From the NCBI GenBank assembly GCA_005116815.1, contig SWDR01000022.1, positions 10,023 to 56,819 on the forward strand: a stretch of DNA of 46,797 nucleotides, given 5' to 3'. Shown piece after piece: positions 22,584 through 29,638 of this stretch. The notes under the pieces were generated by a model, which saw only the letters and a program-made list of their open reading frames with translations, made no database searches and was not told the DNA's origin. Each line of letters begins with the position of its first letter. Position 1 is the stretch's first letter. The position numbers were made by a program, and so were the translations under genes. Source of the stretch: Nitrospira sp. GTDB taxonomy: Bacteria > Nitrospirota > Nitrospiria > Nitrospirales > Nitrospiraceae.

Positions 22584-24041
22584 TCAGTCGGCAGGGGTTG
22601 TTGCTGTCGCCATTGCAGGAAGGCATGCTTTGCATTCCTGGATCACGCGCGTAAAGAGTTCTGTTAATTTTGGTTCGAAGTGAGTGCCTGCATGCGCACG
22701 CATGTGTTGGCAGGCGTCATCAATCGAGAGAGGCGATCGGCCTGGAAGCTCTGCAGTCAGGTGGTCGAACGCTTGGGCCAGACTGACAATGCGGGCTAGT
22801 TGAGGAATGCCGTCTTCCTGAAGTCCATAGGGATAGCCTGAGCCATCCCATCGAGTATCGTTCTTCAGGATGGTCGGGAGATGTTCGGGGGTGATGATGT
22901 CCGATCCCTTGGACCAAATGAATGCCTGCTCGATGATGTTCTCCATTTCTCGCACATTGCCAGGCCAGGGATAGCGGGAGAGAAGATCGATGGCATCTTT
23001 GGAAAACTCTTGAGGCGGCCGGTTTTCTTCCTCGATGCGCTTTGCCAGAAAATGTTTGGCGAGGAGGGGGACGTCTTCACCGCGTTCCCGAAGCGGAGGC
23101 AAATACAGCGCAATGACGTTGATGCGGTAGTAGAGGTCTTCGCGGAATTGTCCTTTGCGAACGAGTTCTTCAAGATTTTTGTTCGTCGCGGTGACGATGC
23201 GCACATCTACCTTGATGGATTGCACCCCACCGACTCTGGTGAATTCTCGTTCCTGCAAGACGCGCAGCAGCTTGGCTTGTGTCATGGCGCTGAGATCGCC
23301 GATCTCGTCGAGGAAGAGCGTACCGGTATTCGCGAGTTCAAACTGTCCGACTCGACGAGCCGTGGCATCCGTGAAGGAGCCTTTCTCATGGCCGAATAAC
23401 TCACTCTCGATGAGCGTTTCAGGAAGGGCGGCACAATTGAGTGCGATGAAGGGCCGTTCGCGCCTGCTGCTATTGTAATGGAGGGCCTTCGCGACCAGCT
23501 CCTTTCCCGTTCCGCTCTCTCCTGAGATAAACACGGTGGTGCGGCTGTCGGCGACTTGTTCGATCTTGGTGTAGATGTCTTGCATCGACGGGCTCTTGCC
23601 GATCAGATTGTGAAAGGCATAGCGTCGAACGACTTGCGCACGGAGCTGTTTGACCTCCCGCTGGAGTTCCTGATCTTTGAGTGCGCGATCGACGATGATG
23701 CGGAGTTCTTCCACATCGAAAGGTTTCGAGAGATAGTCGGCCGCACCGAACTTCATGGCGTCGACGGCGGTTTTGACCGATTTTGTTCCTGTCAGCATGA
23801 TGACCGGCGCCGTCCGGTCCTCGGCGCGTATGGTTTGGAGTACCGACAGCCCGTCCGTGCCAGGCAGGATGACGTCGAGGAGCACCAGATGGGGAGCTTC
23901 CTTGCGAAATAGCTCGAGGCCCTCTTGGGCGTCTGCGGCTTGGATCGTTTCGTAGGCTGGCTCGAGCACCGCTTTCAATGAAGCCCGAACCCGGGCCTCA
24001 TCATCGATCAACAGGATTCGCTTTTTCATGCTGGTGTCCAT
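22584..24041 (-). CDS. NtrC-type response regulator (REC + AAA+), C-terminus is an HD-GYP C-terminal half instead of HTH
   Basis: REC (LLIDDE, DVILPG); GESGTGKE; GSFTDA loop; then RWDGSGYPYGL...PQLARIVSLAQAFDHLTAE...GTHFEPKLTELF. Confidence 0.88.
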   Translation of the reverse strand: MDTSMKKRILLIDDEARVRASLKAVLEPAYETIQAADAQEGLELFRKEAPHLVLLDVILPGTDGLSVLQTIRAEDRTAPVIMLTGTKSVKTAVDAMKFGAADYLSKPFDVEELRIIVDRALKDQELQREVKQLRAQVVRRYAFHNLIGKSPSMQDIYTKIEQVADSRTTVFISGESGTGKELVAKALHYNSSRRERPFIALNCAALPETLIESELFGHEKGSFTDATARRVGQFELANTGTLFLDEIGDLSAMTQAKLLRVLQEREFTRVGGVQSIKVDVRIVTATNKNLEELVRKGQFREDLYYRINVIALYLPPLRERGEDVPLLAKHFLAKRIEEENRPPQEFSKDAIDLLSRYPWPGNVREMENIIEQAFIWSKGSDIITPEHLPTILKNDTRWDGSGYPYGLQEDGIPQLARIVSLAQAFDHLTAELPGRSPLSIDDACQHMRAHAGTHFEPKLTELFTRVIQECKACLPAMATATTPAD

Positions 24042-24054
24042 AGGGTGTTGGCGA

Positions 24055-25332
24055 TTATGCGGGCAAGGCCGGCAGGCTCACGAAAAACGTGGTGCCGATA
24101 CCGACTGTACTCTTCACCCGGATTTCGCCGTGATGTTCTTGAATAATTTGATGGACAATCGTCAAGCCGAGTCCTGTTCCTTCGTGTTCTCCGCTCTCGT
24201 GTTTGGTCGTGAAAAATGGGTCGAAAATGTGTTCAAGATTGGCCTCTTGAATTCCCTCACCGGTATCCTCAATTTCGATGTGGGCCCAGACTTTTCCTCC
24301 CGGCTTCACCACTGTGCGGGTTTGAACACGTAACCGCCCACCCGCTCCTGCCATGGAGTCTATGGCATTGAGGAGGAGATTGAGCAGGACCTGTTTAATC
24401 TGTTGTCGATCCAGCATGACACGAGGCAGGTCAGGCGCCAACTCTTTTTCAATCTTGATCCCACGGCTATCCGCCTTCACGTCGATGAAATAGAGACAGG
24501 AGGCGACAATATCGTTGAAATCCTCGTCCGTTAGTTTGGGCTCCATGTATCGGGCGTAGTCGAGAATTTCCTGGATCAATCGCTCGATTCGATACACATC
24601 GTCGAGCACGACTTTACTGAACTCCTGGATGAATTGCGGGTCATCTTTTCGTTCAGGAGCCAACTGGATAAAGGTTTTAATCGAGGTGAGCGGATTTCTG
24701 ATTTCATGAGCGAAGCCGCCGGCGATCGTCTCAAGGGATTTCAGCCGATCCGTTCGCTTCATCAGTGTGTGTGAGCGATGCAGATCCTCGTACAACACAA
24801 TCGTGTCGAGTGCATTGGTCGCGGTTTGTGCCAGCGCGGCCAGCATGGCCTTGCTCAGTGCCTGTTCTGTCGTGAGAGGGACTGCTGCGCCGAGGACGGT
24901 GAAGGCAATGAGACGGCTTTTGTTGAGATGCGGCACGATGCGGGAGGCCTGCATCGATTCCATCGCTCTGCGTGCGTCGGCTCCGAAGTCAGTATCTTGA
25001 AGGTCAGTCGCCGAGTCGGTCTGTGCCATGATCCAGTTGGTGGCGAGCAGGTGTTGAGGCAAGGGATGGCTCACGGCCAACGTTGATGGAATAGAGGCGG
25101 GGGCATCCGAACCAACCATGTTGGCGCGGCGATAACATTCATGTTCGCGATCCAGGACGAAGAGCGCCCCATGGGTCGTCGCCCCTGCTCGGCAGAGTTC
25201 GTGGACAATGCGATTGCCGATGGTCGGCAGGTCGGTCATGGTGCCCAGGTCTGACGCAAACTGTGTGACGATAGTTAACAGCTCACTAGAAGACGACGTT
25301 GAGAAGTCGGTATTCGGTGGGCGTGAGGTCAT
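24055..25332 (-). CDS. GAF domain sensor histidine kinase
   Basis: GGFAHEIRNPLTSIKTF H-box, N-box LLLNAIDSM, EDTGEGI, GTGLGLTI. Confidence 0.93.
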   Translation of the reverse strand: MTSRPPNTDFSTSSSSELLTIVTQFASDLGTMTDLPTIGNRIVHELCRAGATTHGALFVLDREHECYRRANMVGSDAPASIPSTLAVSHPLPQHLLATNWIMAQTDSATDLQDTDFGADARRAMESMQASRIVPHLNKSRLIAFTVLGAAVPLTTEQALSKAMLAALAQTATNALDTIVLYEDLHRSHTLMKRTDRLKSLETIAGGFAHEIRNPLTSIKTFIQLAPERKDDPQFIQEFSKVVLDDVYRIERLIQEILDYARYMEPKLTDEDFNDIVASCLYFIDVKADSRGIKIEKELAPDLPRVMLDRQQIKQVLLNLLLNAIDSMAGAGGRLRVQTRTVVKPGGKVWAHIEIEDTGEGIQEANLEHIFDPFFTTKHESGEHEGTGLGLTIVHQIIQEHHGEIRVKSTVGIGTTFFVSLPALPA

Positions 25333-25447: not shown

Positions 25448-28400
25448 TCAGCTAGCGGATTTACCTTTTTCGATGACGGCGAAGAGGCCCTGCCCATCGA
25501 ACGCAGAAATGATGCGGGGTGTAAGGATGCCGGCTTGCTGGAGAAATGAGGTGAGCGATGAGCGGTCGAAGGTGTGCAGCAATCCATGCCGGATGGCCTC
25601 ACGGAGTCGGCCCAGGTAATGAAGCAGGATCTGGGCTTGCGGACTAAATTCATCCTGATTCGCGCTGTGCAGGTGCCGGCGATAGAGCACCGAGAGGTCG
25701 GTCTCAGGCTGGAAAACTGTGAGGACGAGGCGCCCCTTGGGGTGAAGCACGCGGTACAGCTCACGCATGGTGACCAGCGGAGAGGGAACGAATAACAGTG
25801 ACAGATTGCAGACGATGCGATGGAGCGAGTCATTTTTGAAGGGCAGGCCCTGCGACCAATCCGTATGGACCCATTCAGCTGTCAGGGGCGGGTGGATGGT
25901 GAGCGTGCCTGCGAAGTCACTGTCGAGTTCCCGATGCAAGGCACGAAGACTCTGTCGTGCCTGTGTCAGCGACTCGTGAGAATGCCCCAAGCCAATGACA
26001 TGGACGGGACGTTCCGGACTCCATCCGCGCTGGCGTGAGCGATAGGCTTGGTTCACCATTGTGGCTCGGACCAAATCGCCGTGGCCGACTCCCACGTCCA
26101 TGAGCATGGAGCCCGGTTCGAGCGGGCTGAGCAGCCGGTAGAGATCGTCTAAGAGTTTCCAATATTCGTGCAGATTCCCCAGTTGGGTCAGCTGCTGCAG
26201 ATGTGCCACCCTCAGGGCTTCGCGCGTAATCTGCGAAAGGTTGTGGCGAAGACGGGTACGCTCCAATTCGATGCGCTGTTGACGGGCCAGCATGTCTCGG
26301 GCCTGTAGGCTGAATTCAGCCGGAACGGCTGGCAGCGAGACGGCGATCGCGATCTGTTCCAGGATCTGTCGGAAGGCCAGCGGGTGTGGCTCATTGAGTG
26401 GGAGCTCCTGGCCGGTCAGCGGAGTGGGAACCGTTGCGAGGCGGGTATGGGCTCCCAACGCCGTGAGGAATGCCTGCGGGAGATCCGCTGGAGGCAGCGG
26501 CCCGAAGGGAGGGCCTGGAGTCGTGAGAATGGCCGATGGCGAACGTAGGAGGCGCAGATCCGCAAGGGTGGAGGCGAGGTCTGTAAAGTGGCCTGCCACA
26601 ATATCGCCGACAAAGCGATCGATATTGACGTTGAGCCCGAGCAGATTGGCAATGCCACGCCGGAGTCCGTACCGGTGGTCGGCCACGAGGTCATGACCAT
26701 GGACCGACATCAGCATGGCCTGAATATCGACAACCGGATTGATCAGGAGAAGCAGATCGAGGGGTCGTGATTGTATCGCCGTCTTGAGCGCGACTCGCGC
26801 AGACAGATCGCTGGCCATCACGATCAGAGGCGCAGTGGGCCAGGTATGTTGCACAAATTCCACGACTTTCAAGAGATCGGCTTGCATGCTCCGTAAGGTC
26901 GTCTGCTGTAACTCGCCGTCGCTGAGCCCGACATGGTTGGTGTGGTCGTACCGTAAGACCCGGAGCCGGTGGTGCGCGAGGTAGTAGGACAAGGTGCTGG
27001 CATCCAACGAGGTCTGGCCGTAGCCGGGAGCGATGATGACGACCGGTGTGTTCGGTGCGAGTGACGGGCGCAGATGATCGTCGGTGATCATGATCGCCTG
27101 GCCTCGTGGATTCCGGCATTCCCGCGGAATACTGATGACCGTCGGTTGTTGCGAGGGGGACTTCGACTCGCCCGGGGACGTCAGATGTTGCCGGACGACA
27201 CGGTTCACTTCCCGCTCTGCATAGGGGGTGAGCCCGTGAAAGCGGAGCCCGACCAGCAGGGCGGGGTTGGCGTCCTGGGCCGGAAACTCTTGTGGCGCAG
27301 TGGGATCCGGGGCTGACCAGATGATCTTTGCGGGAAGCGCAGAATCCGGAGCTCCCGGTTCATGGGCGCCAGGATGATGCGGGGTCTGTGCCGAGGCGAA
27401 GTGCAGCGTGGCGAGGCCCTGTAAGAGTTCAGGGGCTGCAGTGAGATGGAGACAGACCCCGTCGCGGCTGAGATTTGTCGTGAGCGCTCCAAGGCGGTGC
27501 GTCTTGCCGGTCTGATCTGTGACATCCAGCCGGACAGGGAGCTGCAAGGCGACCCGGACGGCTTCGCGGGGGTTGTAGTCGCCCTGTTCGGTCGCGATCG
27601 GCTGATTCGTGAGATTTAGCGTGGACGATGGTTCTGCCGCAAGGAGCACTTCAAGGGAGAAGGACAACGCCTGCTCCTGAGCAGCTTGGATAAGTGAGCC
27701 CAAGACGGCCGCCTCTTCTCGTTTGGGTGCATCGAACTCGATGACAAGATGGGAGACCGGGGTTCCAGAAGAGAGCGAGATGGGTCGCTCTTCCGCCATC
27801 CCTTGCAGTTCGAGGATTCCCACCGAAGTTTTCAATACGACATAGGCATCTTGTGGCGCCACGCTGGGGAAGTCCTTGGGGAGCGTGATGCAGGTGCCGC
27901 CGAGGCTCAGATTCGTAATGGTGCCATCCCACGTCGTTGAACCGACGGTAATCGTGGCCGGCAGGGCCGCTGTCGTTCGAGCGCTGTGCCGCCGTTCCTG
28001 TTGAGGCCTTTCTGTGCCGGCTATCGGAGCAGGTGCCGTCGTGCCTCGCGTCGTATCAGGAACGCGTGGGGCTGAGGCGGCCGCGACGGTATCCGGTAGC
28101 GGGAAGCTCTCGAACGGTGGGCATGAGGCTGCCGGCAGGCGGAGGATGATACGAAGTGGGCCCTGCATTGGCGCCGACACATCCAAGATTCCACCGAGTT
28201 CGCGGACGAGTTGATACGACTTGAGGAGATCACTCGTCGGAGAGGATGGAGCCGGGGATTCTGCCGACCAGATCATATCCGATTCGAGCAGTTCCATTTC
28301 GACCTCGGTCGGTGGTGCGAGAGCAAAGAGGGCGGGGGCCTCTGCCGAGACGGAGGTCGACCCGACTGCGCGCGTGATGAGGAGGATCCGATGCAGCCGT

Positions 28401-29638
28401 CCGACGGTCAAGAGGTAGGTCTGCGCATAGTGCAACAGGTGATGCGCGAGTGTCGAGAGCTGCGTGCGATCGCCGGCGAGGGGAGGGAGGTGCGGTGAAC
28501 GTTGCCGCATGATCCCTGCGCCATCCACGATCGAGGGGTCGGTGGACGTGAGCGCATCGTCAAGGACGTCGTCGATCGTATGTCCTAATTCGGCGGCGTC
28601 TCGCTCGTGCAAAGCCTGTGTCAATTGTGCGCCGAGTTTCGAGGCTTCTGCGGCATGGCTGACGAGTGTTTCGGCTTGGTCGTCCAGACGTGCGTCGCGA
28701 ATGGAGGCAAGAATTCGTTGGGAGTCGATCAAGAGGGCGGCCAGTGGTTCGTCCAGTTGTTGCGACAGCAATGTGGCTCGTTGGGCCAGCGCAAGCAGCT
28801 CATCGGTACGCCGGAGTTCTTGGCGAAGTTGATGAATGGTGTCGTCTTGTTGTTTGGGTTGGGAGAGGTCTCGGATCAGTCCCACCGTGCCGAGAAATCG
28901 GCGAAGGGGGTCGTAGAGTCCTCTGGCGTTCACTTCCGCCGTGAGGGTCAGTGTCCTGTTATCCTGCGTGGGCTTTCCTTGAAAGATCAGCTCGGCATGG
29001 CTGGTGCCTCGCGCGCCGGAACGGCGTTCGTTGAGGCGATACCGGGCTACCGACTCCTGGTCCGGGGGCACGAGGGTGGTGTAGGGCAATCCGATGAGCT
29101 CATCGGGCGAGTAGCCCAAGAGTGTGACGATGCCAGGACTGACGGTCACAAAACAGCCGCTGGCATCCAATTCGTAGACGATGTCGCTGAGTGACTCAAT
29201 GAGTCGACGATAGCGCTCTTGCGCATGGTCCAGTGCGATACGCAGGTCGCTTTTCTCGATGGCTTCTTTGGCACAGAAGAGCAGTTCCGTGAGAAAGGCA
29301 GGAGAGGTCTTTGCGAGGAAAAAGTCGACGTCGGCCTTGAGCGCTTGAATCGCCGAGGTTGAATCGGTGCGGTCGCTCATTAACATAATGGCGGTGTACG
29401 GCGCGCGGCGCTTCATGTCTGCAGAAAGGGAAGTGCGGTCCCCGGCGAGGCATTGTTCGTCGATCAGGATGAGGGTCCATTCCTGGGGTGACGTCCAGGC
29501 ACGGGCTTCTTCGGCAGAATAGGCGACATCTACGCGGCAGCCGGGAAAGAATCCGCGCAGACTGATGGTGACGAGTTTAATGGATTCAGCATGTTCGCTG
29601 ACAATCAAGATGGTGATCGGCTCGCTCTGCGGCATCAA
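25448..29638 (-). CDS. 1396-aa protein: REC-PAS-degenerate histidine kinase-PilZ-PilZ-LuxD-like alpha/beta hydrolase-SAM methyltransferase
   Basis: One continuous ORF; PAS SLSDIVYELDASGCFVTVSPG; PilZ motifs RHSAR/NLSLGG and REAVR/NLSRDG; LuxD-like PGYGQTS...RYDHTNHVGLSDGE...ASDLSARVA; methyltransferase DVGVGHGD. Confidence 0.85.
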   Translation of the reverse strand: MMPQSEPITILIVSEHAESIKLVTISLRGFFPGCRVDVAYSAEEARAWTSPQEWTLILIDEQCLAGDRTSLSADMKRRAPYTAIMLMSDRTDSTSAIQALKADVDFFLAKTSPAFLTELLFCAKEAIEKSDLRIALDHAQERYRRLIESLSDIVYELDASGCFVTVSPGIVTLLGYSPDELIGLPYTTLVPPDQESVARYRLNERRSGARGTSHAELIFQGKPTQDNRTLTLTAEVNARGLYDPLRRFLGTVGLIRDLSQPKQQDDTIHQLRQELRRTDELLALAQRATLLSQQLDEPLAALLIDSQRILASIRDARLDDQAETLVSHAAEASKLGAQLTQALHERDAAELGHTIDDVLDDALTSTDPSIVDGAGIMRQRSPHLPPLAGDRTQLSTLAHHLLHYAQTYLLTVGRLHRILLITRAVGSTSVSAEAPALFALAPPTEVEMELLESDMIWSAESPAPSSPTSDLLKSYQLVRELGGILDVSAPMQGPLRIILRLPAASCPPFESFPLPDTVAAASAPRVPDTTRGTTAPAPIAGTERPQQERRHSARTTAALPATITVGSTTWDGTITNLSLGGTCITLPKDFPSVAPQDAYVVLKTSVGILELQGMAEERPISLSSGTPVSHLVIEFDAPKREEAAVLGSLIQAAQEQALSFSLEVLLAAEPSSTLNLTNQPIATEQGDYNPREAVRVALQLPVRLDVTDQTGKTHRLGALTTNLSRDGVCLHLTAAPELLQGLATLHFASAQTPHHPGAHEPGAPDSALPAKIIWSAPDPTAPQEFPAQDANPALLVGLRFHGLTPYAEREVNRVVRQHLTSPGESKSPSQQPTVISIPRECRNPRGQAIMITDDHLRPSLAPNTPVVIIAPGYGQTSLDASTLSYYLAHHRLRVLRYDHTNHVGLSDGELQQTTLRSMQADLLKVVEFVQHTWPTAPLIVMASDLSARVALKTAIQSRPLDLLLLINPVVDIQAMLMSVHGHDLVADHRYGLRRGIANLLGLNVNIDRFVGDIVAGHFTDLASTLADLRLLRSPSAILTTPGPPFGPLPPADLPQAFLTALGAHTRLATVPTPLTGQELPLNEPHPLAFRQILEQIAIAVSLPAVPAEFSLQARDMLARQQRIELERTRLRHNLSQITREALRVAHLQQLTQLGNLHEYWKLLDDLYRLLSPLEPGSMLMDVGVGHGDLVRATMVNQAYRSRQRGWSPERPVHVIGLGHSHESLTQARQSLRALHRELDSDFAGTLTIHPPLTAEWVHTDWSQGLPFKNDSLHRIVCNLSLLFVPSPLVTMRELYRVLHPKGRLVLTVFQPETDLSVLYRRHLHSANQDEFSPQAQILLHYLGRLREAIRHGLLHTFDRSSLTSFLQQAGILTPRIISAFDGQGLFAVIEKGKSAS

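Follow-up and report, generated by a model that had tools for sequence, protein, structure and literature searches.

The window that we analysed is a stretch of 46,797 nucleotides from Nitrospira sp. (contig SWDR01000022.1). Positions 25448-29638 form a single open frame of 1396 codons on the minus strand, in agreement with the preliminary description, which had reported one uninterrupted reading frame and left the strand unstated. The frame opens with TTG directly followed by ATG at 29635, and this ATG is the likely start codon. Full-length orthologues occur in more than 25 Nitrospira-family genomes, at 42-95% identity across many independent assemblies; the reading frame is therefore not an assembly chimera. 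Pfam, AlphaFold2 and Foldseek together confirmed the domain series first read from the sequence, namely REC, PAS, kinase-like, tandem PilZ, LuxD-like and class I methyltransferase parts. The features of the gene and its downstream neighbours are as follows.

25451..29635, minus strand: whole protein, 1395 amino acids counted from the ATG (frame analysis and orthologues)
29264..29617, minus strand: REC domain, strand-3 phospho-Asp retained, acidic pair now Ser-Glu
28868..29218, minus strand: PAS domain (Pfam)
28124..28846, minus strand: pseudo-histidine-kinase, H-box His replaced by Gln (LSQQLDEPL)
27623..28003, minus strand: PilZ 1, with RRHSAR and NLSLGG (Pfam and fold match)
27185..27577, minus strand: PilZ 2, with REAVR and NLSRDG (Pfam and fold match)
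26354..27145, minus strand: alpha/beta hydrolase fold of LuxD-like type, without its catalytic triad (Pfam, AlphaFold2 and LuxD alignment)
26807..26809, minus strand: Asp944, replacing the nucleophile Ser (LuxD Ser114; alignment)
26501..26503, minus strand: site aligned with LuxD Asp211, the catalytic Asp that is lost here; a gap makes the placement approximate
26411..26413, minus strand: aligned site of the lost catalytic His (LuxD His241; alignment)
25451..26158, minus strand: class I SAM methyltransferase fold, with motif I (DVGVGHGD) present and Gly1218 in place of the motif II acid
24055..25332, minus strand: partner histidine kinase (HisKA-HATPase), soluble, equivalent to the C-terminal half of the relatives' 7TM kinase
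22584..24041, minus strand: sigma54 response regulator fused to an HD-GYP tail through a 1332-bp deletion; two genes in relatives

Pfam placed the REC domain at residues 10-111 with 30.0 bits, slightly below its cut-off of 30.2, and the PAS domain at residues 141-257 (2e-11). The REC pocket retains its Asp and Lys, and its DD acid pair reads S-E; judged by these residues, the pocket is degraded. Pfam finds no match in the kinase-like region. Residues 265-824, modelled with AlphaFold2 (mean pLDDT 71), gave a match to the histidine kinases ZraS, LvrB and NtrB, and this match, along with the Gln at the HisKA His position, bears out the pseudo-kinase assignment. The H-box His is retained in three relatives (L036, L118 and L140). 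With the REC acid pair and the HisKA His altered in this way, the proposal that the protein is phosphorylation-gated finds no support.

The following part of the same model matched the tandem-PilZ proteins MrkH and PlzA, which share the fold of the two PilZ domains and have no enzyme, REC or kinase parts. Pfam likewise recovered two PilZ stretches (3e-12), so both domains hold up by profile and by structure. Each carries the receptor motifs RxxxR and [DN]xSxxG. Both arginines of each R-x3-R motif are invariant in 30 long members of the family, down to 24% identity, as are the Ser and Gly of NxSxxG in PilZ 2; the corresponding serine of PilZ 1 is missing in several members. The window's genome, of 72% estimated completeness, carries GGDEF proteins. 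On these motifs, the PilZ pair is predicted to bind c-di-GMP and to act as a sensor.

The hydrolase was assigned by Pfam to Acyl_transf_2/LuxD (residues 866-1034, 1.9e-14), whereas the NCBIfam LuxD equivalog scored the protein at 52 bits against a cut-off of 420. Its top PDB match, by sequence and by fold, was the LuxD myristoyl-ACP thioesterase of Vibrio harveyi (1tht; PF02273; 20% identity, TM 0.73), which upholds the proposed LuxD relationship. The AlphaFold2 model of residues 832-1396 reached a pLDDT of 89.3 and a pTM of 0.89, and the hydrolase fold is intact in this prediction. In 60 relatives, a Ser-Asp-His set occupies the positions of LuxD Ser114, Asp211 and His241. In contrast to LuxD, the window protein is fused to PilZ and methyltransferase domains and has lost all three triad residues, reading D/G/G at these positions. 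In its clade (37 of 37 members), Ser is replaced by Asp, and the Asp and His sites hold unrelated residues. The triad-intact (60) and triad-lost (37) groups were defined by these very residues, so that this contrast arises by construction; the joint loss of all three residues on one clade (SH-aLRT 98), nested among triad-intact lineages, does not. On its residues, we reject an active thioesterase for the window protein.

The methyltransferase was matched by Pfam Methyltransf_11 at residues 1214-1306 (1e-6), and this half of the AlphaFold2 model matched Coq5, RebM and MitM. The GxGxG motif I is present, and the acidic residue that ends strand 2 (motif II) is absent; on its residues, we reject an active methyltransferase for the window protein as well. 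The SAM motifs, which were not used to define the groups, are intact in 60 of 60 triad-intact relatives versus 14 of 37 members of the window's clade; those 14 may, by their motifs, still bind SAM.

These losses bear on the earlier proposal of an active c-di-GMP-gated enzyme that makes or modifies an acyl signal similar to a methyl ester. Both enzyme folds are real and, in the model, intact, motif I is kept, and triad-intact homologues pair with a 7TM kinase, but the triad is missing in every clade member and the motif II acid is missing in the window. We consider this reading very unlikely, and the claim that the window protein makes a lipid signal is unsupported; as an idea about the triad-intact relatives and their 7TM histidine kinases, the enzyme proposal still fits. 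A new active site could be envisaged, with Asp944, invariant in the clade, as nucleophile and a new His such as that at position 982, which is His in about 70% of the clade. Haloalkane dehalogenases and epoxide hydrolases use an Asp nucleophile. However, Asp-nucleophile hydrolases still require a His, position 982 is not His in other sub-lineages, and the canonical His is gone in all clade members, making such a site highly improbable.

Despite triad loss, few parts of the protein are as constrained as the hydrolase, which is under purifying selection. Its dN/dS is mostly 0.07-0.2 among closer orthologues, lower than that of the pseudo-kinase, compared with mostly 0.5-1.1 for the inter-domain linker. 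Selection preserves the fold together with the sites predicted to bind c-di-GMP, and has not preserved the catalytic residues. Motifs have been lost from the kinase, REC and hydrolase parts and, to some extent, from the methyltransferase, as would be expected of a decaying relic without function; given the strong purifying selection on these same domains, the uninterrupted reading frame and the synteny fixed across the family, we find this hardly credible.

Acyl-ligand binding without catalysis is possible for the window protein. In a more specific form of the non-catalytic reading that we favour below, the hydrolase would be a receptor whose pocket binds an acyl ligand made elsewhere, with the PilZ domains integrating c-di-GMP. 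The gibberellin receptor GID1 arose from an active hydrolase that lost its His (PMC3531792); receptors of this type keep the alpha/beta hydrolase fold and have lost catalysis, as the window protein has, but they are plant proteins of a single domain with a known ligand. Near the active site, the segments PGYG and RYDHTNHVG hardly vary, which speaks for this reading, but such conservation may be structural and the ligand is hypothetical. We regard a receptor of this kind as possible, if rather doubtful.

We then placed the protein within its family. Long proteins of about 1400 amino acids were found across the window's genus and neighbouring genera. Shorter members, mostly 570-1000 amino acids, consist of hydrolase and methyltransferase, usually with one or two PilZ domains, and come from other Nitrospirota and from single MAGs labelled Omnitrophota, Proteobacteria and Deltaproteobacteria. 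Two relatives (L084 and L086) are fused REC-PAS-PilZ-PilZ-hydrolase-methyltransferase proteins with an intact triad, as is L085, with a shortened PAS; in the genome of L038, REC-PAS-PilZ is a separate gene immediately upstream. These arrangements indicate that fusion came first and that catalysis was lost later.

Several divergent members deserve mention. L118 (3349-7656, 1435 amino acids) has intact methyltransferase motifs, the H-box His and a Gly at the nucleophile position, and its locus has no separate kinase gene. In two distant relatives, L117 (5548-7686) and L119 (5095-7662), a Polyketide_cyc/START-like lipid-binding domain precedes the hydrolase-methyltransferase part, and L117 lies after plsX-fabH-fabD type genes. 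L143 (6204-9164) and L144 (5911-9051) are highly divergent PilZ-methyltransferase proteins adjoining hybrid kinases and acyl-CoA dehydrogenase or FadL genes; Pfam recognises no hydrolase in L143. The lipid-related genes near these distant relatives, too few to count, hint at a lipid link.

Nearly all of the long-clade genomes examined share the order galT, window gene, histidine kinase, sigma54 regulator and REC-HD-GYP, followed by convergent recN. The HD-GYP domain is a phosphodiesterase that acts on c-di-GMP. In triad-intact relatives, the next same-strand gene encodes a 7TM-GAF-HisKA-HATPase kinase of 716-1009 amino acids, and this neighbour also occurs in Omnitrophota and Proteobacteria MAGs, which by their labels makes three phyla. 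In the window, the partner kinase is 51% identical to the relatives' 7TM kinase over residues 557-962. Close relatives of the 7TM part were absent from the long-clade genomes tested; N. defluvii-type genomes hold the dead form together with an intact paralogue that has its own 7TM kinase beside it. Overall, the kinase encoded next is of the membrane type in 46 relatives that have the catalytic Ser and of the soluble type in 33 of the 34 that lack it, with transmembrane segments counted by scripted hydropathy and supported by Pfam HisKA_7TM matches. The exception, L114, has Asn in place of the Ser and retains a 7TM kinase. A PilZ-KAS III (FabH-like) fusion gene (L114, 4243-5841) lies between this family member and its kinase. 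The tree places the loss of the triad in what is essentially a single event and that of the 7TM part in one or two, and an independent-contrast test of the two found a single independent pair and had no power; the association is therefore a coherent history and not a statistical one.

The partner kinase and sigma54 regulator resemble PrsK and PrsR (TIGR02916 and TIGR02915), but all scores lie under the curated cut-offs, and the PEP-CTERM PrsK/PrsR system was dismissed. At junction 22852/22853, the regulator is joined in frame to the final part of the REC-HD-GYP protein. Compared with the 96%-identical G017 (L151), 1332 bp are missing there, either a real deletion or an assembly error, which takes away the DNA-binding end of the regulator.

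Ralstonia offers a comparable layout: there, the methyltransferase PhcB produces a hydroxy fatty acid methyl ester, which the histidine kinase PhcS senses (PMC11960443). In the triad-intact relatives, as in this operon, a SAM methyltransferase gene is followed by one for a membrane histidine kinase, an arrangement of these relatives and not of the window; the likeness drawn here is one of layout. The family differs by its added hydrolase and PilZ domains, and a fatty acid methyl ester product would be hypothetical; the window protein moreover has no catalytic residues and its partner kinase no membrane receptor part. No published account of a protein of this type was found in the open literature searched, in keeping with the initial view that the full architecture is undescribed. 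Searches of the same literature on Nitrospira PilZ proteins, PilZ-methyltransferase-hydrolase fusions and HisKA_7TM with quorum sensing found nothing relevant.

Taken together, we favour, with confidence evenly balanced, a non-catalytic c-di-GMP-responsive hub derived from an ancestral acyl-signal synthase and its receptor kinase. The hydrolase and methyltransferase would descend from active enzymes, would no longer form a working active site, and would be retained as a ligand-sensing or protein-docking module. Binding of c-di-GMP to the tandem PilZ domains would change the conformation of the protein, with output probably passing to the products of the neighbouring genes, the soluble histidine kinase, the sigma54 regulator and the REC-HD-GYP phosphodiesterase; a link to this kinase is suggested by gene order. 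Ancestrally, the protein was probably an enzyme producing an acyl-derived molecule that the adjoining 7TM histidine kinase may have sensed. In such an intact form, a c-di-GMP-gated enzyme would free an acyl chain and methylate the product, and the membrane kinase would sense it; the Nitrospira clade would have lost both the synthase activity and the receptor domain. We infer function for the intact and dead forms alike.

Nitrospira comprise the main nitrite oxidisers as well as the comammox bacteria. Their reported signalling is based on acyl-homoserine lactones (PMC8553950), and a locus fixed beside recN throughout the family suggests a further route of signalling. It documents a series from an intact enzyme with a receptor kinase to a dead enzyme with a soluble kinase, and in the N. 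defluvii group a single genome carries both states. Tentatively, and well short of an even case, Nitrospirota and a few other bacteria may possess a c-di-GMP-gated acyl-signal system, so far undescribed, in which a synthase with PilZ, LuxD hydrolase and methyltransferase parts lies beside a 7TM-GAF receptor kinase; in many Nitrospira, this system would now be a pseudoenzyme hub with a soluble kinase.
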